From NCBI GenBank assembly GCA_943359455.1, contig CALRHL010000004.1, forward strand, positions 1 through 54,916: 54,916 nt of DNA. The letters are read 5' to 3'. This stretch comes from Candidatus Uhrbacteria bacterium RIFOXYB12_FULL_58_10 (GTDB lineage Bacteria; Patescibacteriota; Patescibacteriia; UBA9934; GWF2-40-263). The translations under genes were made by a program, and so were the position numbers. Shown here piece after piece: positions 6,784 through 46,364 of the stretch (the first letter of the stretch is position 1; every line of letters starts with the position of its first letter). The notes under the pieces were generated by a model. That model made no database searches and was not told the DNA's origin. It was given only the letters and a program-made list of their open reading frames with translations.

Positions 6784-7440
6784 TCAGACGTAGAGATCCA
6801 TCCACTGGAAACACCCACCGTTGTAGGTGAGTCCGTGGAATCCATTCGAAGCGTAAGCATCCACTGGGTTCTGGAGGTAGTGCGCTGCGGTCTTGCGAAG
6901 AACAGGGAGACGCATTTCCCGAGGAAGTGCCAACATGCGTGCTGTAATGTCTTGCACCTCATCGTATTCCCAGCCCATGAACGACAGGATCGCGAGAAAC
7001 GCGTACTCCGGCCTGTACGCCGTGCCACCCCAGCGGTGCCCGTACGGTTCACGGAACAAACTGCGAGTCGGGAACGGACGTCCTGCCGGCCACTTCGCGA
7101 TGTACGCCATGAGCCCGTAGTACTCCATGGCCCACAGGTAACTGTGCACCGAGTAGTGCGCGTCGATATCACCGTTCTTGGTCGCTCCGTTCATGTGATT
7201 GAACGCGCCGATTCCGAGCCGAGACATCATGTGGTACGGAGTCACGGACATTGCTTCGCTGAGCTCCCCTTCCTTGATGACTGCCCGCACCGTGATCGTC
7301 GGCGAACTCGAGGCGCGCTCCACGACGTGTGCTGACAGAGTCGAACACTTCGGCGAGCTGTAAAGCACACCAACATCTTTGCTCATCTTTCTAACCTCGG
7401 CCGACGTCATCGACCTTGAAACACCTTGAACTGATTTCAT
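6784..7440 (-). CDS. orphan 218-aa protein, function unknown
   Basis: I do not recognise this protein. It is a soluble, aromatic-rich sequence (many Tyr, Trp, Met and His; for instance SVHSYLWAMEYYGLMAYIAKW) with no signal peptide, membrane segment or known catalytic motif. Coding is supported by a good Shine-Dalgarno (AAGGAAG, about 7 nt before the ATG), a consensus promoter upstream (TTGACA, 17 bp, TATTCT; 7662-7690) and a terminator just downstream. Codon use is visibly more GC-rich than in the neighbouring housekeeping genes, which suggests a separate origin. The transcript would have a leader of about 215 nt containing hairpins. The gene is a single-gene unit between leuS and a divergent cell-wall hydrolase. 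Confidence 0.75.
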   Translation of the reverse strand: MKSVQGVSRSMTSAEVRKMSKDVGVLYSSPKCSTLSAHVVERASSSPTITVRAVIKEGELSEAMSVTPYHMMSRLGIGAFNHMNGATKNGDIDAHYSVHSYLWAMEYYGLMAYIAKWPAGRPFPTRSLFREPYGHRWGGTAYRPEYAFLAILSFMGWEYDEVQDITARMLALPREMRLPVLRKTAAHYLQNPVDAYASNGFHGLTYNGGCFQWMDLYV

Positions 7441-7655
7441 TTTTTCTTCCTTCCCCGCGTTGCGCGAGGTTTAATTTTTGACCCCGTCGGATGACGAGAC
7501 CGTGACCGTCAAACGGCCTGTGTCGCTGCCGTCAACACCGTTCCATCGAACGGCTCGAGATCGTTTGGAAGATATAAACGATTTCGATGCATGTGTATCT
7601 CTGTTCTGATCCTCAAAATGCTTTGCAAATTTAAGGAAATAAGAACGCAAGATAA
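7441..7655 (-). other. long structured 5' leader of the orphan gene
   Basis: About 215 nt separate the predicted transcription start (near 7655) from the ATG. The leader can form a hairpin with arms ATCGTTT/AAACGAT (around 7560-7590) and has repeated ACGGC/CCGTC strings. No known riboswitch core is recognisable. It could host post-transcriptional control. Confidence 0.4.
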
Positions 7656-7661
7656 CGGCTT

Positions 7662-7690
7662 AGAATAGCATATTTTTGTGATTTTGTCAA
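7662..7690 (-). promoter_or_regulatory. sigma-70 promoter for the 218-aa orphan gene
   Basis: On the minus strand TTGACA (7685-7690) and TATTCT (7662-7667) are separated by exactly 17 bp. The region is shared with the divergent cell-wall hydrolase gene, whose likely -10 TATACT, preceded by an extended TG, lies at 7702-7707. Confidence 0.8.
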
Positions 7691-7731
7691 GAAATCTGTG
7701 TTATACTATCTATAGAGACCTCTGTAACTTG

Positions 7732-7750
7732 ACGGGACTCAAGTCCCTAA
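7732..7750 (+). promoter_or_regulatory. leader palindrome shared with the AAA+ operon
   Basis: GACGGGACTCAAGTCCCTA lies 16 nt before the ATG of the cell-wall hydrolase. The same 19-mer with two changes (AA for TC in the loop) lies 12 nt before the ATG of the AAA+ gene (18395-18413, minus strand). The GGGAC/GTCCC arms form a small hairpin that may affect translation or bind a regulator; it could also be a dispersed palindrome. Confidence 0.5.
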
Positions 7751-7766
7751 GAAATCAACGCAATCT

Positions 7767-10391
7767 ATGGACAAATCTACTTCTCCACCTGAAGGTGTAT
7801 CGACGGGGACCGTATCGGAAAAAAAACTACAGGCTCGAAAGCGGATTGAGACGGGAGACGTCATTGCTGGCGTCGCGGCGATTGCAGGAGCGATCCATGT
7901 TCGTGTGAACGTTCCGGAAAAACCACCCGAGCTTGAACAACAAAAACTGACTCCAAATACCGAACATCCTGACTGGCGCTATACGGCGGTTGGAAACATC
8001 GTTCAAGAAACGATGTTTCAGGATGAAACGCACACAGGTGGAATTCAGAATAATTTTGTTGACCTGTTTGAAACGGTGTTCACATCGACAGAAGGCACCT
8101 ACTATTATTTCGATACAAAAGGAACGGTTCTTCTCACAACACACCAACCAGAAGCACTTCGACTGCTCAAAGAATCCGTTATAAAAGCGCGTAAGGACAA
8201 AAAGAATCCTGATACACTTATCGCTGAGCTCAAAAAACAAACTCAAGCGTGGCACAATGAAAATCGCAAGAAAATTTCTGATGTCGCGGTTGTTCCTGTT
8301 GACTACGCCATTGCAGGATATCCGTTTATTACATCCCCGACTCTTCCGGGTGTTGAAATCGAAGGTGAAAAAACGTCCCTTCTTCAAGTCGTGATGGAAC
8401 GACTCAAGGAAAAAACAAAAAGTCTGAAAGAAGGTCCTCGTTATTTTCAAGGAGAAGAACGATCTATCTATAACGGCATTGTCGAAATAGCAAAAGCATA
8501 CGATATGCCACGCGCGATTGTTCTTGGGGTTGCTGCCAATGAAAGCGGATATGATCGAGACGCGATTTCTAAAGCAGATGCCCGTGGTGTTTTTCAGTTT
8601 ACAAAGGGTGGATTTAATGACGCAAAAGAATATCTTCAAAATCACCCAGAACTTGGAATGACCGTCCGTTCAGGATCCATTGGCACATTCGAAGATTCGT
8701 GGAAAAATCGCTTTGTGAGCGCGGAATTGTTTTGTGTATACTTCCGCGTGATTCAAAAACGCATTCGTCCGGACGTCGAAAAACTTGAAAGACGTTTATC
8801 AAAAATCGATTCAAGTTATCAGACAGGTGTCCTTCTCGATATCGCGACGATCAACGCTTACAACGCAGGAGCTAATCGTATTTCTGATTGCATCAATCGA
8901 TTCCTTTCTCTTTCAGATACGCAAATCCAGTCCCACATCGGCAAACCTCCCTATGGAGTCGACACGTGGCTTGCCGTAACGGGACTTTCGTTTGGACTCA
9001 CTGACAAAAACAAAGCCACCCTCGTTGGCCCAGACGTTTTCCTGTACCCACAAAAAGTTCTTGCTATGGGCGCTCTCATCATGGAAGAAAACAACTATCT
9101 GTCCGTTCATGAGCGTGAACGTGATGATGCGGTTACAATGATCCCAGATCCGCAAACACGACGTGGTCTCTGGCAAGGACTAATGATCGGAAGTGGAATC
9201 ACTGCGCTGGCAGCTGGATTATTTACGGGTGCGCGCACTCTAAAAGACACCCATGCAGAAAACCCAAACTACTCGACACGCCGAGATTTTTTAAGAACCA
9301 CGGCCGCAACAATCGGTATTGCATCACCAATTGTTCGTGCAGGAAAGAAGTGGTTCGAAGAACGAAAGGTATCTCCTCTTCCTGACATTGAAGTTCAGCC
9401 AATGCACCATGAATTATTTAAAGAAGTCATGATTGATGCGAAATTTGCTCTCGATGAACTATTAAAAAAACTAAAGCAAAATGCAGAAGATGGAAAAACA
9501 GGATGGACGGCCGACGAGCTTGATCAAATTTATCAGTATCTCGTCCCAGAAAACCGAAAATTACTTGCAAAACGATTTGAAGCAATGTTCGGAAAAGATC
9601 TTGTAAAACGTTTTGCCGAATCCGAGCGTCTTAAATACGAAAAACGTATTCCTGTATACAACGAAGCGATTCCTCTCCAACGTTCCTACATTGAACAAGA
9701 AAAAAACTTGGGGAATTTGATGACGCTCACACAAGATGACCCATCGCTTCCTTACTTCTGCGAGCAAGTTGGTAAACCGACTGGAGTAGGCAATGATCCA
9801 GACGCGATGTACACTCGCAAAGAATTTTTGCCTGTCCTCGGAACACTCATTGAGCTCGTAAATTATCAAATCGATGCATTCAATGTAGACCCGTCGTCCT
9901 ACGGAATTTTGAATGCGACCTTCCCTACCCTCCCGCATATTCGTGCGGTAAAAATTTCTGGGGCGTTACGATTTGTCGAAGGAACGATGGAGATGTTTGA
10001 AAAAGGACAAGGAGGTCGCACAACCACCGGAACCACTCCACATTGGCTTGGATACACCTTAGACATCGCTTCGTTTGCAACAGATGGAAGTCACATGGTT
10101 CGCCTCGATGAAGATTTGCTCGAAGAAAAAGGCGGAACGGTGAAAGTAAAACGAGGGGATAAATTACCAAGCCAAGGATTTGGAAAACGCACACGTGAAC
10201 TGTATTCCACCATGATCGGACGAGCGCTGTTTGCCATGCGCGAGCCTCTTATGAAACAGCAAAGAATAGAAATTCAACCGCTATGGGAAGGATACGGCAA
10301 AGATGAAAAAGGAAGGAAAATTTCTGGAACAAGCAAGGTTTGGGATGGTGGCCAACTCAACTGGCACATTGCCATGGAAGTACAGGAATAA
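7767..10391 (+). CDS. cell-wall hydrolase: lytic transglycosylase plus DUF5715/M15-like peptidase
   Basis: An 874-aa protein. Residues about 225-370 form a lytic-transglycosylase (SLT) domain: the catalytic Glu sits in AANESGYD (about 258), followed by ADARGVFQ and NAYNAGA. Residues about 465-520 hold a hydrophobic segment and then STRRDFLRTTAATIGIA, a twin-arginine-like motif with a second hydrophobic stretch. The C-terminal part (about 670-870) has HWLGYTLDI and LNWHIAME, resembling the H..G.A.DI and WH.. metal ligands of M15/DUF5715 peptidases. It would cut both glycan and peptide of the wall. The internal Tat-like motif suggests that two proteins, or two separately exported halves, were fused. 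No N-terminal signal peptide is evident, so how the first half reaches the wall is unclear. Confidence 0.82.
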   Translation: MDKSTSPPEGVSTGTVSEKKLQARKRIETGDVIAGVAAIAGAIHVRVNVPEKPPELEQQKLTPNTEHPDWRYTAVGNIVQETMFQDETHTGGIQNNFVDLFETVFTSTEGTYYYFDTKGTVLLTTHQPEALRLLKESVIKARKDKKNPDTLIAELKKQTQAWHNENRKKISDVAVVPVDYAIAGYPFITSPTLPGVEIEGEKTSLLQVVMERLKEKTKSLKEGPRYFQGEERSIYNGIVEIAKAYDMPRAIVLGVAANESGYDRDAISKADARGVFQFTKGGFNDAKEYLQNHPELGMTVRSGSIGTFEDSWKNRFVSAELFCVYFRVIQKRIRPDVEKLERRLSKIDSSYQTGVLLDIATINAYNAGANRISDCINRFLSLSDTQIQSHIGKPPYGVDTWLAVTGLSFGLTDKNKATLVGPDVFLYPQKVLAMGALIMEENNYLSVHERERDDAVTMIPDPQTRRGLWQGLMIGSGITALAAGLFTGARTLKDTHAENPNYSTRRDFLRTTAATIGIASPIVRAGKKWFEERKVSPLPDIEVQPMHHELFKEVMIDAKFALDELLKKLKQNAEDGKTGWTADELDQIYQYLVPENRKLLAKRFEAMFGKDLVKRFAESERLKYEKRIPVYNEAIPLQRSYIEQEKNLGNLMTLTQDDPSLPYFCEQVGKPTGVGNDPDAMYTRKEFLPVLGTLIELVNYQIDAFNVDPSSYGILNATFPTLPHIRAVKISGALRFVEGTMEMFEKGQGGRTTTGTTPHWLGYTLDIASFATDGSHMVRLDEDLLEEKGGTVKVKRGDKLPSQGFGKRTRELYSTMIGRALFAMREPLMKQQRIEIQPLWEGYGKDEKGRKISGTSKVWDGGQLNWHIAMEVQE

Positions 10392-10397
10392 AGCTGT

Positions 10398-11624
10398 TCA
10401 CGAATATTGCATCGCCTCTTGTAACCGTCCAAGCGCGACCACAAACGCGGCGCGTCGCAAGTCGGTCTTCAATGTTTGTGCTGTCTCAAAAATTTCCAAC
10501 GCTTCCCTTTCCATAATTTCCTTCAATTTCCCAAAGACTTGTTCCTCAGTCCAATGCTCTCCTTTCAAATTCTGTTCCCATTCAAACGTCGAGACCGTGA
10601 CACCGCCAGCATTGAAGAGAATATCTGGGATGACAGAAATTCCACGAGCAAACAGCGCATCATCTGCTTCTGGAGTCGTCGGCCCGTTTGCAAGTTCCAT
10701 AACTGATTTCGCTCGGATTGAACCAACATTGTCGGCGCGAATCTGATTTTCCAGTGCCGCAGGAATCAAAATATCGCATTCAAGTGCGAGCAACTCGTCA
10801 TTTGTGATCGTCCGAGTTCCTGACATCCCAACAACCGACCCAGTCGCTTTCTTGTGTGCCGTTACCGCATCAATATCAAGTGTGGTATCTGATACAATCG
10901 CGCCTTTTGAGTCTGAAACGGCGATCACACGGTGTCCTGCCTTCGTCCATAAGTCTGCCGCATGATCCCCTGCATTTCCAAAACCCTGAACGACCACACG
11001 ACAGGAAATTGGCAACCCAAGCTGTTCACGCAATGCATCAAACACGTAGAACCCACCTTGTGCCGTCGCGGTTCCGCGCCCTTCTGATCCGCCTTGTCCA
11101 AGCGGCTTGCCAGTAATCACCGCGCCAGACGTATCGCCCGTAATTTTCCCAAACTCATCCGCCATCCATGCCATAATTTCTGGTGTCGTGTTCACATCCG
11201 GTGCTGGCACATCTTTGCGTGGACCAAGGACATCTGCCAAAGCACGCATCCATCCGCGCGACAACCGCTCAAGCTCGCCTTTCGACAACATTTTCGGATC
11301 CACAGTCACCCCACCCTTCCCTCCCCCCATAGGAATTCCAACAACCGAACATTTCATCGTCATCCAAAGGGCAAGAGCTTTCACCTCATGAATATCCGTT
11401 TGTAAATGAAAACGAATTCCACCTTTGTATGGGCCACGCGCATTGTTGTGTTCAACTCGATACCCTTCAAATACACAAAGCGATCCGTCGTCCATGGTCA
11501 CAGGAATCGAAATGTGAATTTCACGATTAGGATGCTTCAGTCGCTCGATAAGATCTGCCGGAAATGGTTTAACAGCGTTCGCTCGTGCGAGTTGATTGAG
11601 AGCGTTGTCAAAAGGGTTATTCAT
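10398..11624 (-). CDS. gdhA: glutamate dehydrogenase (Glu/Leu/Phe/Val dehydrogenase family)
   Basis: A 408-aa NAD(P)-dependent enzyme interconverting glutamate with 2-oxoglutarate and ammonia. The substrate-binding region GPYKGGIRFH, MTMKCSVVGIPMGGGKGG with the catalytic Lys, APDVNT, and the dinucleotide motif VVQGFGNAG are intact. The ATG at 11624 (MNNPFDNAL) is preferred over the frame's first start, which would add 19 residues without homology. A MITE lies 45 bp upstream of the start, so the native promoter is either very short or rebuilt by the insertion. It converges on the cell-wall hydrolase with 6 bp between stops. This is one of the few amino-acid metabolism genes in the window. Confidence 0.93.
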   Translation of the reverse strand: MNNPFDNALNQLARANAVKPFPADLIERLKHPNREIHISIPVTMDDGSLCVFEGYRVEHNNARGPYKGGIRFHLQTDIHEVKALALWMTMKCSVVGIPMGGGKGGVTVDPKMLSKGELERLSRGWMRALADVLGPRKDVPAPDVNTTPEIMAWMADEFGKITGDTSGAVITGKPLGQGGSEGRGTATAQGGFYVFDALREQLGLPISCRVVVQGFGNAGDHAADLWTKAGHRVIAVSDSKGAIVSDTTLDIDAVTAHKKATGSVVGMSGTRTITNDELLALECDILIPAALENQIRADNVGSIRAKSVMELANGPTTPEADDALFARGISVIPDILFNAGGVTVSTFEWEQNLKGEHWTEEQVFGKLKEIMEREALEIFETAQTLKTDLRRAAFVVALGRLQEAMQYS

Positions 11625-11668
11625 ATGCGTGACAGTTTGGCACAAGCTCGCAAGATTCGCAAACGATA

Positions 11669-11829
11669 GGAACCTCTGCAAAAGTCATGTGCGAGGTCAA
11701 ATCGAGACAGATTCGCACGACACGCATGAACGATTTCGAGGTGATATGCAGATATCATTGAGGAATCGTGAATGCGTGTGGTGCGAATATGGCCGATTTG
11801 AAGCCGTGCATGACTTTTGCAGAGGTTCC
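11669..11829. mobile_element. MITE with 21-bp perfect terminal inverted repeats and GATA target duplication
   Basis: The ends GGAACCTCTGCAAAAGTCAT... (11669-11689) and its exact reverse complement (11809-11829) bound a 161-bp element that is an imperfect palindrome over almost its whole length, so its RNA would be one long hairpin. GATA flanks it directly on both sides (11665-11668 and 11830-11833), a 4-bp target-site duplication. It contains no gene and would need a transposase in trans. It sits between gdhA and the PP2C gene. Confidence 0.88.
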
Positions 11830-11844
11830 GATAAAAAACGTCCC

Positions 11845-18420: not shown

Positions 18421-18449
18421 AGTATACAACACAAAAGAGACCTCTACAA
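18421..18449 (-). promoter_or_regulatory. promoter of the AAA+-VWA-PP2C operon
   Basis: On the minus strand TTGTAG (18444-18449) and TATACT (18421-18426) are 17 bp apart. The -35 box lies in the T-rich tail of the preceding RNA terminator, so termination and re-initiation are adjacent. Confidence 0.6.
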
Positions 18450-18476
18450 AAGCAAAACCGCCTAAGAAAAGGCGGT
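18448..18476 (-). terminator. intrinsic terminator of large RNA 1
   Basis: On the minus strand ACCGCC/GGCGGT closes an 8-nt loop and is followed by TTTTGCTTTT. Confidence 0.88.
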
Positions 18477-19270
18477 CAAGCGATTTTTGGAGCGTACTCC
18501 GGACGAATCTCTTTTGAAACACATGTCGATCAGGATGGGGATTTAAGCCGTTGTTTCGGCTCCCCACCACAAATCGTCAGCAACGGCGCGTACCGTTGGC
18601 AGGTTGCCCTGCGATGTTTCAACGTTGATTTGCCTGCCTTGCGGCTACCCTCACGGCACGTCGCGTACCGTAACGAGGGACAATTTTCGGTTCCTATGCA
18701 TTCGCGCAGCACAGGGAGACATTGATTAAGCTCTCGTCGACAATGGCATGGCCACGTCGTGCGTCGGCCTAGAGCCGGCGCTGAGATACCTTAATCTGTC
18801 TTTTCACCGAAGGCTTGTTGAGCCTTGTGTGTCTTTTCAAACACACTCACCTCGCCGAAGTTATTTAGGGCAACCGACGAGGGCCCTCGATCCTTACGGA
18901 CCGGGTTTTGGGCGCGTCACACATCTTGTCCAGATCTCATTTCGAATGAATTTTTACAGTTAGATCGAGAAGCGGAATTGCTCTCGAAATCTCTGCGATC
19001 CACCCTCAGGTGAATCCGCTCCGAGCCATTTGCGCTCGAAACGGATAGCACAGGACCACTCCTCGTACTATCATCATTCAAAACGGTCTGGCACAAGCCC
19101 TGTTACTCTCCGCTAATCTCAGGCGGAAACAGTAACAGTTTTTGTGTACGCGTTTACCCAAGGGGCGAGGCTGGTGCCTCTCCGTAGCCCCTTCTGCCAT
19201 TTCTGGCAGTATTCTCAATTGGTTCGGGAGTGAGAACAACCCGGAAATCCACACACCTAATTGCATGTGG
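18448..19270 (-). ncRNA. large structured non-coding RNA 1 (about 820 nt)
   Basis: This unit has a consensus promoter (TTGACA, 17 bp, TAACAT; 19277-19305), an intrinsic terminator, and no credible ORF. It is packed with perfect stems. Examples on the RNA strand are CTGCCA-GAAA-TGGCAG, AAGGGGC...GCCCCTT enclosing GAGGC-ACCA-GCCTC, CTGTTACT...AGTAACAG enclosing CCGC/GCGG, GTGTGT...ACACAC, GCAGG-GCAA-CCTGC and AAGGC...GCCTT. Repeated GNRA tetraloops suggest a compact tertiary fold, as in ornate large bacterial RNAs. I looked for hallmarks of RNase P RNA, tmRNA, SRP RNA, 6S, group I and II introns and rRNA and found none. It lies between the AAA+ operon and a 68-aa gene. Function is unknown. Confidence 0.75.
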
Positions 19271-19276
19271 AAAAAT

Positions 19277-19305
19277 ATGTTAACACGATAATGAACTTTT
19301 GTCAA
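19277..19305 (-). promoter_or_regulatory. sigma-70 promoter of large RNA 1
   Basis: Minus strand TTGACA (19300-19305), 17-bp spacer, TAACAT (19277-19282). The -35 box is preceded by ATCAC, as at the promoter of large RNA 2, giving a shared 11-mer ATCACTTGACA. Confidence 0.85.
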
Positions 19306-19400: not shown

Positions 19401-19607
19401 ATGTCAACAAAAATCAGCAAGGAGAACCGCGAAATCATTCGTCAGTATCTTAGACGAATGCAAGAAACGTTCACTTCCGCAGGAATTACCGAAACATTCC
19501 TTGATTCCGATCAAGGACTCATCGTTCATCGATACGCAAACGGAAAAGAAGCAACTGTGGATGCAGACGCCATTCTCAAAGAGATTGGCACGCAAACCAC
19601 CACATAA
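19401..19607 (+). CDS. 68-aa small protein of unknown function
   Basis: I do not recognise this short, soluble, charged protein. It begins with a helical stretch (STKISKENREIIRQYLRRMQ) and then a segment that could form a small beta sheet (DQGLIVHRYANGKEATV). Reality is supported by a Shine-Dalgarno (GAGGAG, 5 nt before the ATG), its own consensus promoter and an intrinsic terminator directly after the stop. It lies between two divergent large structured RNAs. A link with those RNAs, for example as a binding protein, is possible but rests only on position. Confidence 0.75.
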   Translation: MSTKISKENREIIRQYLRRMQETFTSAGITETFLDSDQGLIVHRYANGKEATVDADAILKEIGTQTTT

Positions 19608-19641: not shown

Positions 19642-19670
19642 TTGACAGTTTGGCTGTTTTGTGGTATATT
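19642..19670 (+). promoter_or_regulatory. near-perfect sigma-70 promoter of large RNA 2
   Basis: TTGACA (19642-19647), 17-bp spacer, TATATT (19665-19670). It is one of the best promoters in the window, so RNA 2 is probably abundant. Confidence 0.9.
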
Positions 19671-19736
19671 GATGATCTCAAACATGTTGTTTGGGACTCT
19701 CAGTGTGTTCGCGGCAATTTGCCGAAGGAGGTAAAC

Positions 19737-19760
19737 GTGTCCTTTCTACGAGATCATTAG
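19737..19760 (+). other. possible 7-residue leader peptide inside large RNA 2
   Basis: GTG TCC TTT CTA CGA GAT CAT TAG follows AAGGAGGT with a 4-nt gap. The Shine-Dalgarno is a perfect 8-nt match to the usual 16S anti-SD. It may encode VSFLRDH, or it may be a ribosome-pairing element, or simply one arm of a stem. Confidence 0.3.
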
Positions 19761-20266
19761 TTTGTCATTCTCCATGCCACGTCTCAAATAAAGGCATGGT
19801 AAGCCATTGGTGAAAACCATGGCGGGGGTATCAGTAATACGGCGCTGCCGTCCCCTGAGTAACAATCGGACTAGTAACTATGACTAGGCGTGAAGCCTTG
19901 AGTAGTTCTGGAGCTATCCTATCCGATCTCAAAAAGCAGTCTGATATTTGTCAGTCTGCTGAAGGTTCTTCACCGGTTGCCTACGCTGACCTTCGGTGAA
20001 GTAAGTGCGAAGGTGGATCTACACCTTTGCGCGGGGCCCAACGTCCCTTGGATAAAAATCAGGTATTTGGCGGGAGTTTCGGCTCCCGGCGAAAGATCTG
20101 ATGCTATAGAGCCAAAAACGTTCTCCAATTTAAACGGCGCGTGATGCGTCGTATGGAGTGTCGGTACCGAGAGGCCGACTTAAAGCGCGGGAATGTAATC
20201 CCATCGTCCGCGCTCAAAAGCAAGCACTGTCTGTTGGGAACTCAGTCTCATTTTTCTGCCACTCTT

Positions 20267-20312
20267 AACCCGTCGTCGATGCGCGAGCATTGCCGACGGG
20301 TTTCTTTTTTTT
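20267..20312 (+). terminator. intrinsic terminator of large RNA 2
   Basis: AACCCGTCG/CGACGGGTT stem around an 18-nt loop, followed by TTTCTTTTTTTT. The T-run reaches the stop codon of the convergent trxB gene. Confidence 0.92.
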
Positions 20313-21234
20313 ATTCCCGTCCTGCCAACCATCGCTCTGCATCTATGGCAGCCATGCAGCCGGTTCCTGCTGCTGTCACGGCTTGGCGATAATAATGATC
20401 GGCGACGTCGCCGGCGGCGAAGATGCCTTCGATGTTTGTTTTGGTGGAGCCTGGCGCGGTTTTCAAATAACCTTTTGCGTCGAAATCGAGAATGCCTTTG
20501 AACAAACTTGTGTTCGGTGTATGTCCGATCGCCATAAACACTCCTTCGGTTGGGTGATCGACTGTCTCGTTCGTCTTATTGTTAAAAACTTTCACCCCTG
20601 TAACTTTTTTCCCATCCCCAGTAATTTCCCTAATTTCCGAATTCCATCGGAATTCAATTTTCGGATTATTTCTTGCTCGCTCCTGCATGATTTTACTCGC
20701 TCGTAATTCTTCTTTTCTGACAATCACGGTCACTGTCTCCGCGAATCGCGTCAAAAACGTTGCTTCTTCCATCGCACTGTCTCCACCACCAACCACGATA
20801 ATTTTTTTGCCCTTAAAGAAAAACCCGTCGCATGTTGCACATGCTGAAACTCCACGGCCGCCGTATTCTTTTTCTCCAGGAATGTTTAGCCACATCGCGG
20901 TCGCACCCGTTGCGACAATCACGGACTCAGACAAATATGTCTGATCTGCTGTCTTGACCACGAACGGATGAACAGAAAAATCTACATGGACGACATCGTC
21001 AGCAATCATCCTCGTTCCGAACCGCTCCGACTGCTTCTTAAACTGTTCCATCATCTCCGGACCCATCAGTCCAGATGGAAATCCAGGATAGTTTTCAACT
21101 TCGGTTGTAAGCATGAGCTGTCCCCCAGGAACACGACCTTCAAAAAGAAGCGGCTTCAATTCCGCTCGTGCCGCGTAGATTGCTGCTGTGTGACCAGCAG
21201 GACCAGATCCAATGATGATCAGTTTTTCTGTCAT
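20311..21234 (-). CDS. trxB: thioredoxin reductase
   Basis: A 307-aa FAD flavoprotein that passes electrons from NADPH to thioredoxin. It has the FAD motif IGSGPAGHTAAIYAARA at the N-terminus, the redox disulfide CATCDG (about residues 133-136), the NADPH motif VVGGGDSAMEEA, and the C-terminal GIFAAGDVAD. Length is typical. Its ATG overlaps the trxA TGA in an ATGA junction, so the pair is translationally coupled and forms a complete thioredoxin system. It converges on the terminator of large RNA 2. Confidence 0.96.
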   Translation of the reverse strand: MTEKLIIIGSGPAGHTAAIYAARAELKPLLFEGRVPGGQLMLTTEVENYPGFPSGLMGPEMMEQFKKQSERFGTRMIADDVVHVDFSVHPFVVKTADQTYLSESVIVATGATAMWLNIPGEKEYGGRGVSACATCDGFFFKGKKIIVVGGGDSAMEEATFLTRFAETVTVIVRKEELRASKIMQERARNNPKIEFRWNSEIREITGDGKKVTGVKVFNNKTNETVDHPTEGVFMAIGHTPNTSLFKGILDFDAKGYLKTAPGSTKTNIEGIFAAGDVADHYYRQAVTAAGTGCMAAIDAERWLAGRE

Positions 21235-24494: not shown

Positions 24495-24524
24495 ACAAAT
24501 GAAGTATATCAAATGCGAGAAATA

Positions 24525-24684
24525 ATACTATCTCCAACTAACCATCCGGCACCATCCCGTCCAAAATTGGGCTCCGACTTTGAGAAAAGTCTTCAACATA
24601 TCTACGGATATGCTTCAGACTTTTCTCTTCGTCTCGCCTCAATTTTGAACGGGCTATACCGAAGCGTTAATGGGAGATGGTATA
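24525..24684. mobile_element. MITE family A, copy 1
   Basis: A 160-bp element with inverted ends (ATACTATCTCC... and ...GGGAGATGGTAT) and a partly palindromic interior. It is nearly identical, in opposite orientation, to copy 2 at 34927-35085. TA dinucleotides flank both copies, as expected for an IS630/Tc1-mariner-like target, though this is ambiguous because the ends are also TA-rich. Its right end supplies the last codons and stop of the histidine kinase gene. Confidence 0.88.
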
Positions 24685-25631
24685 ACAGGAAGCTCCACAC
24701 GCATCGTTGTGCCTTTTCCCTGTCGACTTTCAAAAGTCATCTGACCTCCAAACTCCCTCACAATCGCCTGCGACAGGGTGAGCGAAATTCCAGATCCATC
24801 CACCCACAAGTCAGACGCATTGCTCGCACGATAAAAAGGCGTGAACATGGCGGCTTGTTCTGGTTCCGGGATGCCAATCCCTTGGTCTTTGATCGTGATG
24901 ATAATCTTTTTTTTTTCTTGATCAACGTTAAGGCTCACCACAACTTTCTTCCCGATCTTGGTATACAAAATCGCGTTTGCAAGTAAGGCGTCAAGAACTT
25001 GATGAATGCGATTTGCGTCACAACGAATAGATGGAGATACAGTGAGTGGACGATTCCAAACGAGCGAAATCTTTTTTCGTCTCGCTTGTACGGCCCAACG
25101 ACCGAGCGACTCATCGATGAGCGGAACGATTTCACACACCTTGAGCTTCACACGAAGCTTTTCACCCTTCAACACTCCAAGCGTATCTTGTAAAATCAAC
25201 GTTCGATTCAAAACATCAACCGCAGCGTGTTCAAGGGTATCGAGTAACTCACGTTGCGCGGTGGTGAGACGCCCTGCCTCCTCGTTTTTGAGCATCTCTG
25301 TTGACCATCGAATTTCATTCAGAGGTGTGCGAAGCGTGTGCGCAATTCGCATCATAAAATTATGCAAGTTCGCCGCGGATGTTTCTGCTTGTCGTTCGCA
25401 TGTACTTACTTCGTCTTCAATATGTCGCGAAGCTTGGTAGGCAGCAAAAATTCCACCAAATGAAACGAAAAGACAAATGAGCGTGAGAATGATGACTCCT
25501 GTGGCGGCAGAGGTCACCACGGTTGCGGCAACCATAGACATCACAATGGCGAGAAGACCGCACAAAACATACGCCGTTGCCATGCGTTTTCGAATCACCC
25601 CAATGCGTTTCCATTGTCCCCCTCCTTGCAT
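24654..25631 (-). CDS. membrane histidine kinase, C-terminus completed by a MITE
   Basis: A 325-aa sensor kinase: two transmembrane helices (about residues 17-40 and 44-66) with almost no extracytoplasmic loop, then the H box IAHTLRTPLNE (His 98), N box RIHQVLDALLANAILYT, G boxes DQGIGIPEPE and GSGISLTLSQAI. The small loop suggests sensing in the membrane or cytoplasm. The last ten codons (IPSPINASV and stop) are encoded by the end of the MITE at 24525-24684, so the original C-terminus was replaced after the catalytic core. It probably phosphorylates the two single-domain receivers that follow. The start at 25631 is uncertain; an ATG at residue 17 is possible. Confidence 0.88.
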   Translation of the reverse strand: MQGGGQWKRIGVIRKRMATAYVLCGLLAIVMSMVAATVVTSAATGVIILTLICLFVSFGGIFAAYQASRHIEDEVSTCERQAETSAANLHNFMMRIAHTLRTPLNEIRWSTEMLKNEEAGRLTTAQRELLDTLEHAAVDVLNRTLILQDTLGVLKGEKLRVKLKVCEIVPLIDESLGRWAVQARRKKISLVWNRPLTVSPSIRCDANRIHQVLDALLANAILYTKIGKKVVVSLNVDQEKKKIIITIKDQGIGIPEPEQAAMFTPFYRASNASDLWVDGSGISLTLSQAIVREFGGQMTFESRQGKGTTMRVELPVIPSPINASV

Positions 25632-34883: not shown

Positions 34884-34926
34884 GTAAGGAAATATTGATG
34901 GTTTCGTTGTAGAATGCAACTAACTT

Positions 34927-35085
34927 ATACTATCTCCAATTAACGCTTCGGCATAGCCCGTTCAAAATTGAGGCGAGGCGAAGAGAAAAGGCTGAAGCAT
35001 ATCCGTAGATATGTTGAAGACTTTTCTCAAAGCCGCAGCCCAATTTTGGACGGGATGGTGCCGGATGGTTAGTTGGAGATAGTAT
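34927..35085. mobile_element. MITE family A, copy 2
   Basis: A 159-bp element, reverse complement of copy 1 (24525-24684) at about nine positions in ten. Ends are ATACTATCTCC and GGAGATAGTAT, flanked by TA. It lies between queA and the lipoprotein gene at 35099; its end reads TAGTAT 13 nt before that ATG and may supply the -10 box. Confidence 0.88.
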
Positions 35086-35098
35086 TAAAATCACAAAT

Positions 35099-36289: not shown

Positions 36290-36304
36290 CCCTTCCGACA
36301 TCCA

Positions 36305-36359
36305 AACACCCAATAACCAAGTTGAAGCATATGCGTCAACTTGGTTATTGGGTGTTTTG
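36305..36359. terminator. long inverted-repeat terminator
   Basis: AACACCCAATAACCAAGTTGA and its reverse complement are separated by 10 nt, giving a 21-bp stem with T-run on both strands. It ends the lipoprotein transcript. Confidence 0.85.
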
Positions 36360-46197: not shown

Positions 46198-46234
46198 AAC
46201 AGTCTTAGTATACAGGAATAGTCTATAAATTCTA

Positions 46235-46355
46235 AATTCGAAGTATCAAATCCGAAATAATATTCAAAGCATAAAACTCAAAATTAAAAAAATTCGTTTT
46301 TTTGAGTTTATTATTTCAAATTTGGTGCTTATTTCGAATTTGATACTTCGAATTT
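46235..46355. repeat. AT-rich inverted repeat between divergent operons
   Basis: AAATTCGAAGTATCAAAT...GAAATAA (46235-46261) and its reverse complement (46329-46355) are 27-bp arms with one mismatch; inner ACTCAAAAT and TTTTTTGAGT also pair. The TTCGAA units match the repeat inside leuS. It lies between the membrane-protein gene and gyrB. Confidence 0.8.
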
Positions 46356-46364
46356 CGAGTTTAA

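Follow-up and report, generated by a model that had tools for sequence, protein, structure and literature searches.

A large structured RNA, very likely of an undescribed family, heads a MoxR/VWA locus in a Candidatus Uhrbacteria genome

Only a few bacterial RNAs of several hundred nucleotides and comparable structural complexity are known. Three of the best-studied large structured bacterial RNAs form unexpected assemblies (PMC12286853). ROOL and GOLLD are located in phages or prophages, often near tRNA islands, and no protein partner has been identified for ROOL (PMC12286853). A second group of systems relevant here is that of the AAA+/VWA pairs, which are remodellers of bound targets and whose eukaryotic representative, midasin/Rea1, remodels a ribosomal RNP (PMC13036017). 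The bacterial MoxR/VWA pairs known so far, such as NorQD and RavA-ViaA, act on proteins. The locus that we describe here touches both groups: an RNA of about 820 nt (RNA1) lies directly upstream of a gene for a MoxR/CobS-like AAA+ ATPase, which is followed by genes for a VWA-domain protein and a PP2C-type phosphatase (Table 1). Like OLE, ROOL and GOLLD, which measure from hundreds to over 800 nt, RNA1 is a stand-alone non-coding RNA with many local hairpins, and the functions of those RNAs are, as for RNA1, unknown or only partly known. It is undescribed, its source belongs to the Candidate Phyla Radiation, which has been little studied, and we found no other case of a large structured RNA heading a MoxR/VWA locus.

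Table 1. Features of the island and its edge. Positions are those of the window, the whole stretch of 54,916 nt that was analysed.
Feature	Position	Strand	Remarks
PP2C-type protein phosphatase, 233 aa	11845..12546	-	
VWA-domain protein, 844 aa	12609..15143	-	MIDAS-type DHSGSM, HExxH motifs; weak CobT/ViaA-like matches
MoxR/CobS-like AAA+ ATPase (AAA_5), 1078 aa	15146..18382	-	C-terminal FwdC/GXGXG-like beta-helix
Putative separate -10 region of AAA+ gene, GTTGTATACT	18421..18430	-	read from sequence, downstream of RNA1 terminator
RNA1, ~820-nt structured non-coding RNA	18448..19270	-	promoter and terminator, fold z, strand asymmetry, best sustained structure run, covarying homologue
RNA1 intrinsic terminator	18456..18477	-	counterpart at about L003:207-237
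RNA1 3′ domain	18487..18648	-	conserved in L003:33-199
RNA1 promoter TTGACA-17-TAACAT	19277..19305	-	10/12 match, TG ahead of -10
ORF68, small protein between RNA1 and RNA2	19401..19607	+	modelled as alpha-beta-beta-beta-alpha; no relative reaches significance
RNA2, second structured non-coding RNA candidate	19677..20312	+	z -9.4; promoter 19642-19670; terminator about 20267-20312
Palindromic repeat, 167 bp	11666..11832	.	gdh edge of island; MITE-like family

The window is one whole contig of a 1.07-Mb genome, in which RNA1 occurs as a single copy. When the whole window was scanned for structure in 150-nt pieces, no run of ten pieces on the minus strand was more strongly structured than RNA1 (mean z -3.26). 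Its minimum free energy is -365.6 kcal/mol (z -12.3 against dinucleotide shuffles), and folding favours the minus, transcribed strand over the plus strand (-365 versus -316). These values, together with the covarying homologue of the 3′ domain presented below, uphold the original prediction of a large structured RNA of about 820 nt. The predicted promoter, TTGACA-17 bp-TAACAT, and intrinsic terminator are likewise both present, on the minus strand, which the prediction had left unstated. The terminator consists of a GACCGCC-TTTTCTTA-GGCGGTT hairpin followed by the T-rich tail TTGCTTTT. Because promoter-like matches are no commoner than chance in the RNA1 region (2 found, 3.1 expected), the promoter call rests on its position and on its agreement with the other evidence. 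The span also holds no convincing gene: sense-strand ORFs of at least 50 aa within RNA1 are few and short, do not exceed 85 aa if they start inside and begin with GTG or TTG. Coding potential in the conserved part was considered too and rejected, the frame matches being marginal (E 0.002 and worse, through stops). What proved overstated was the claim of a dozen perfect stems with GNRA tetraloops, since the full-length structure has 19 hairpin loops, four of them GNRA (GAAA twice, GUAA and GCAA), and the 3′ domain folded separately adds one GCAA hairpin.

Further evidence for RNA1 comes from a genome of the same genus, G001 (Ca. Uhrbacteria), whose locus L003 contains a homologue of the last ~240 nt. 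The G001 contig starts 295 nt ahead of the match to the AAA+ gene, and this stretch aligns with the end of RNA1 in the same orientation, at 64% over 161 nt. A covariance model made from the single RNA1 sequence (window 18648-18487) matches L003:33-199 end to end (44.5 bits, E 3e-10). In the model-guided alignment of the two sequences, standard pairs occupy 95% of cells; shuffles give 83% and slid controls 34-42%. Both sides have changed in 15 pairs, a number that none of 500 shuffles reached (mean 7.4). This alignment is fitted to the structure of the window, and therefore the G001 sequence was also folded alone. In this independent fold 44 of the 55 pairs are found again, while 200 mononucleotide shuffles gave 0.2 on average and 6 at most. 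The whole 242-nt G001 stretch has a z of -6.5 versus shuffles, and the terminator hairpin is kept. The structure of RNA1 thus goes beyond chance, because the homologue keeps the fold through compensatory changes; selection on structure is shown, for the 3′ domain only. No homologue was found for the 5′ ~580 nt, and the remainder of the G001 RNA is absent from the 831 kb that were searched, which make up most of that genome. A weak match at locus L111 of G001 was considered as the rest of the RNA and judged to be chance, as it lies at a gene end over an unrelated hairpin.

One explanation that these data address is that RNA1 is a chance or decayed sequence, either structure without function or a pseudogene. 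Its one-genus distribution and the lack of a homologue for most of its length are compatible with this possibility. However, the compensatory changes and the conserved architecture at about 64% identity contradict it for the 3′ domain, and the bias towards the transcribed strand also speaks against it. We consider it very unlikely. The homologue evidence consists of two sequences, one of them truncated, and there are no transcript data; with structural selection shown for the 3′ domain, we consider it very likely that RNA1 is a real, conserved structured RNA.

Does RNA1 belong to a known class? The search against Rfam 15 gave no match at the gathering threshold or at E<10. Rfam 15 includes OLE, ROOL, GOLLD, RNase P, tmRNA and the self-splicing group I/II introns, and RNA1 matched none of their covariance models. 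A full-text search of one literature collection for structured or non-coding RNAs of Uhrbacteria, Patescibacteria or the Candidate Phyla Radiation turned up no paper. The absence of an Rfam match and the covariation of the 3′ domain make it very likely that RNA1 represents an undescribed family, distinct from OLE, ROOL, GOLLD and the housekeeping RNAs. The original prediction, which knew of no class that fitted, is supported in this point by the same two results and by the kept position upstream of the AAA+ gene. It would have been refuted by a housekeeping match in Rfam or by a lack of covariation, and neither occurred. The likeness that it drew to cage-forming RNAs finds no support here but is not ruled out either.

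The distribution of RNA1 follows that of the AAA+ protein, as far as it could be traced. This protein occurs in 2 of 43 genomes of the family, the present one and G001, which has the sole relative among the other 42. A two-sequence RNA model has matches in 2 of the 73 genomes of the order, the same two in which the AAA+ protein is known, and in none of the 71 others. This model found no further match among 381 genomes of the class, and an AAA+ profile detected no further protein of this kind in samples of 381 genomes of the class and 380 of the phylum. Only G001 came back from a pattern scan of GTDB genomes, and blastn of RNA1 gave no match in 96 related genomes, phages or plasmids. Relatives of the AAA+ or VWA proteins were not found in viral contigs, nor relatives of the AAA+ protein in phages. 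A single DNA-pattern match in viral contigs was rejected, as it lies within a coding region and does not match the RNA model. These negatives differ in weight. The known G001 copy escaped the genome search with both the raw sequence and the one-sequence model, which makes the negatives of these two weak, and the two-sequence model finds this copy but was trained on it. Since the model search depends on a first filter, which with the weaker model missed G001, and the better model had learnt from G001, the absence of diverged copies elsewhere is unproven. The VWA gene was found in no other genome of the order, and the G001 contig ends inside the AAA+ gene.

RNA1 is part of an 8.6-kb island between trxB (20311-21234) and gdh (10398-11681), which contains, in order, RNA2 (+), ORF68 (+), RNA1 (-), AAA+ (-), VWA (-) and PP2C (-). 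Many members of the family have the order IF2-trx-trxB-gdh at this place, sometimes with leuS next, while a different gene follows trxB in G001 and in another genome, G003. In a third, G002, no structured RNA was seen behind trxB. The G001 contigs end in this area, so that its RNA copy may or may not lie at the same locus. What is kept in two of two genomes is the RNA1 homologue upstream of the AAA+ gene; the other parts of the island were seen in one genome. The island is flanked by chromosomal housekeeping genes, neither a tRNA nor a tmRNA (ARAGORN) was found in the window, and there was no phage match.

Such a position could suggest that RNA1 is, or once was, a mobile or selfish RNA element resembling an intron or a MITE. 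In favour of this view, the island sits at a conserved junction and has a dispersed palindromic repeat at its edge, which recurs at about 15 further places in the genome with 77-99% identity. Against it, RNA1 is present in a single copy, matches no intron family and shares no more than 13 nt with the repeat, and no reverse transcriptase, transposase or endonuclease was recognised among the island genes. We regard this explanation as very unlikely.

Other palindromes and rearrangements were observed elsewhere in the window. A second long-palindrome family is represented at 24523-24685 and 34925-35087 by two copies of ~160 bp each, 96% identical and in opposite orientation; a nearly perfect 54-bp palindrome follows a gene end at 36304-36357 and a longer AT-rich one lies at 46226-46363. 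In some relatives gdh and leuS are direct neighbours; here the region 6784-10391 between them carries the gene for an 874-aa SLT-domain protein and a 218-aa ORF, a second apparent insertion. At 621-2818, ComEC is split into two overlapping ORFs, a membrane part and a metallo-beta-lactamase part, which are also separate in G001.

Immediately behind RNA1 lies the AAA+ gene, whose product has an AAA_5 match at 3e-11, GvpN-like and CobS-like matches and a C-terminal GXGXG/FwdC beta-helix. Its best PHROG match is annotated 'porphyrin biosynthesis', which we take to mean CobS-like. The homologue behind the RNA in L003 is 44-46% identical. In the VWA protein, DHSGSM and HEFGH/HEAFH motifs can be read in the sequence; the CobT_C, VWA and ViaA profile matches are weak. 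This arrangement raises the possibility that RNA1 is a very long 5′ leader which controls the AAA+ operon by conditional termination, in the manner of a giant riboswitch-like attenuator. Indeed, RNA1 is on the same strand as the AAA+ gene and directly upstream of it in both genomes, with a distance from terminator end to start codon of ~65-75 nt in the window and about 36 nt in L003. However, a separate -10-like box follows the terminator in both genomes (TGGTAGAAT in L003), and an AAA+ gene with a box of its own argues against a plain leader, an inference made from sequence without transcript data. Moreover, known attenuators manage with less than 800 nt of structure, an alternative anti-terminator pairing was not identified, and RNA2, of similar size and also part of the island, has no co-directional gene behind it. 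We consider a leader function unlikely.

RNA2 is the best 10-window structure run on the plus strand of the window, with a TTGACA-17-TATATT promoter and a strong terminator. No homologue of it was found. The idea that RNA1 and RNA2 are paralogues was discarded, as they show no meaningful similarity and the RNA1 3′-domain model does not match RNA2. Their promoters have ATCACTTGACA in common, and these are its sole two exact occurrences in the window. With one mismatch allowed, its count of 3 in the window is not unusual (20 of 100 shuffles), so that common control of RNA1 and RNA2, though possible, is merely hinted at by the shared promoter sequence. ORF68, located between both RNAs, has its own promoter-like site and ribosome-binding site. 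Its single-sequence structural model (pLDDT 81) has an alpha-beta-beta-beta-alpha topology, and this topology occurs in dsRNA-binding domains and in SRP9/14. The fold search gave no significant match, with dsRNA-binding domains and SRP Alu-domain chains appearing merely at E 0.5-1.1. That ORF68 is an RNA-binding protein of the island is thus no more than a possibility resting on a predicted model.

What might RNA1 do? We propose, in the absence of transcript data, that it is non-coding and highly structured, is transcribed on its own and represents an undescribed family. It would fold into the scaffold of a ribonucleoprotein, which the AAA+/VWA pair would assemble or remodel, or which would recruit the pair; the RNA-protein contact is itself inferred. 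By analogy with NorQD and midasin/Rea1, the VWA protein would act as a substrate adaptor docking in the ATPase ring, and the PP2C would reset the complex. Every step beyond a conserved RNA linked to an AAA+ gene is a hypothesis. We favour RNA1 as scaffold or client of the machine because MoxR/VWA pairs remodel their targets and midasin/Rea1 remodels a ribosomal RNP. Also for it are the finding of the RNA in just those two of the order's 73 genomes in which the AAA+ protein is known, and the location of the island where many relatives have a trxB-gdh junction. On the other hand, a linkage seen in two genomes of one genus could possibly be a mere inherited neighbourhood, and the role of the known bacterial pairs on proteins also counts against this reading. 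With no binding data, we hold the inferred scaffold or client role to be slightly more probably wrong than right. If the proteins do act on RNA1, bacteria would have in this locus a compact equivalent of midasin and the ribonucleoprotein on which it acts.

The closest competitor is a free-standing RNA1, a passenger of the island with a role of its own, for example as an RNA regulator or in a homo-oligomeric complex made of RNA only, like those of the ROOL/GOLLD/OLE type. Its own promoter-like site and terminator, a size and hairpin density like those of ROOL, GOLLD and OLE, and the presence of a second, unrelated large RNA nearby would fit this possibility, and ROOL is likewise without an identified protein partner (PMC12286853). 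Against it, the RNA and the AAA+ gene co-occur in 2 of 2 genomes, the 71 others of the order gave no match to the RNA, and there is no phage or tRNA context. Our ranking thus places the scaffold or client reading first, followed by the free-standing RNA sharing the island and then the leader. A bolder version of the scaffold reading, which we consider unlikely, is a new Patescibacteria RNP system comprising RNA1 and RNA2, an RNA-binding ORF68, a midasin-like MoxR/VWA pair and PP2C control, possibly a device for defence or conflict.

In this respect, the MoxR-vWA-centric ternary conflict systems (eLife 2020, PMC7159879) resemble the island in their MoxR and vWA core, sporadic distribution and island-like location. 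The joint encoding of MoxR AAA+ and vWA is met, the latter by the DHSGSM motif and only weakly by profiles. However, no third component (VMAP, iSTAND or FtsH) was recognised among the island genes, which include a PP2C instead, and the passages of that study on which we draw mention no RNA component. Without a recognised third component we do not assign the island to these systems. In NorQD, RavA-ViaA, CobS/CobT and midasin/Rea1, as in the island, a protein carrying a MIDAS-type motif of the VWA kind comes after an AAA_5 ATPase, but the island differs from MoxR AAA+/VWA pairs in the long N-terminal part of the AAA+ protein, its C-terminal FwdC-like beta-helix, the PP2C partner and the large structured RNA that heads the locus. 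Compared with OLE, ROOL and GOLLD, RNA1 matches none of their models, lacks a tRNA-island or phage context and is linked to MoxR, VWA and PP2C genes. RNA1 is thus very likely a new family among the few bacterial RNAs that are large and structured, and its gene linkage has not been described for the others.
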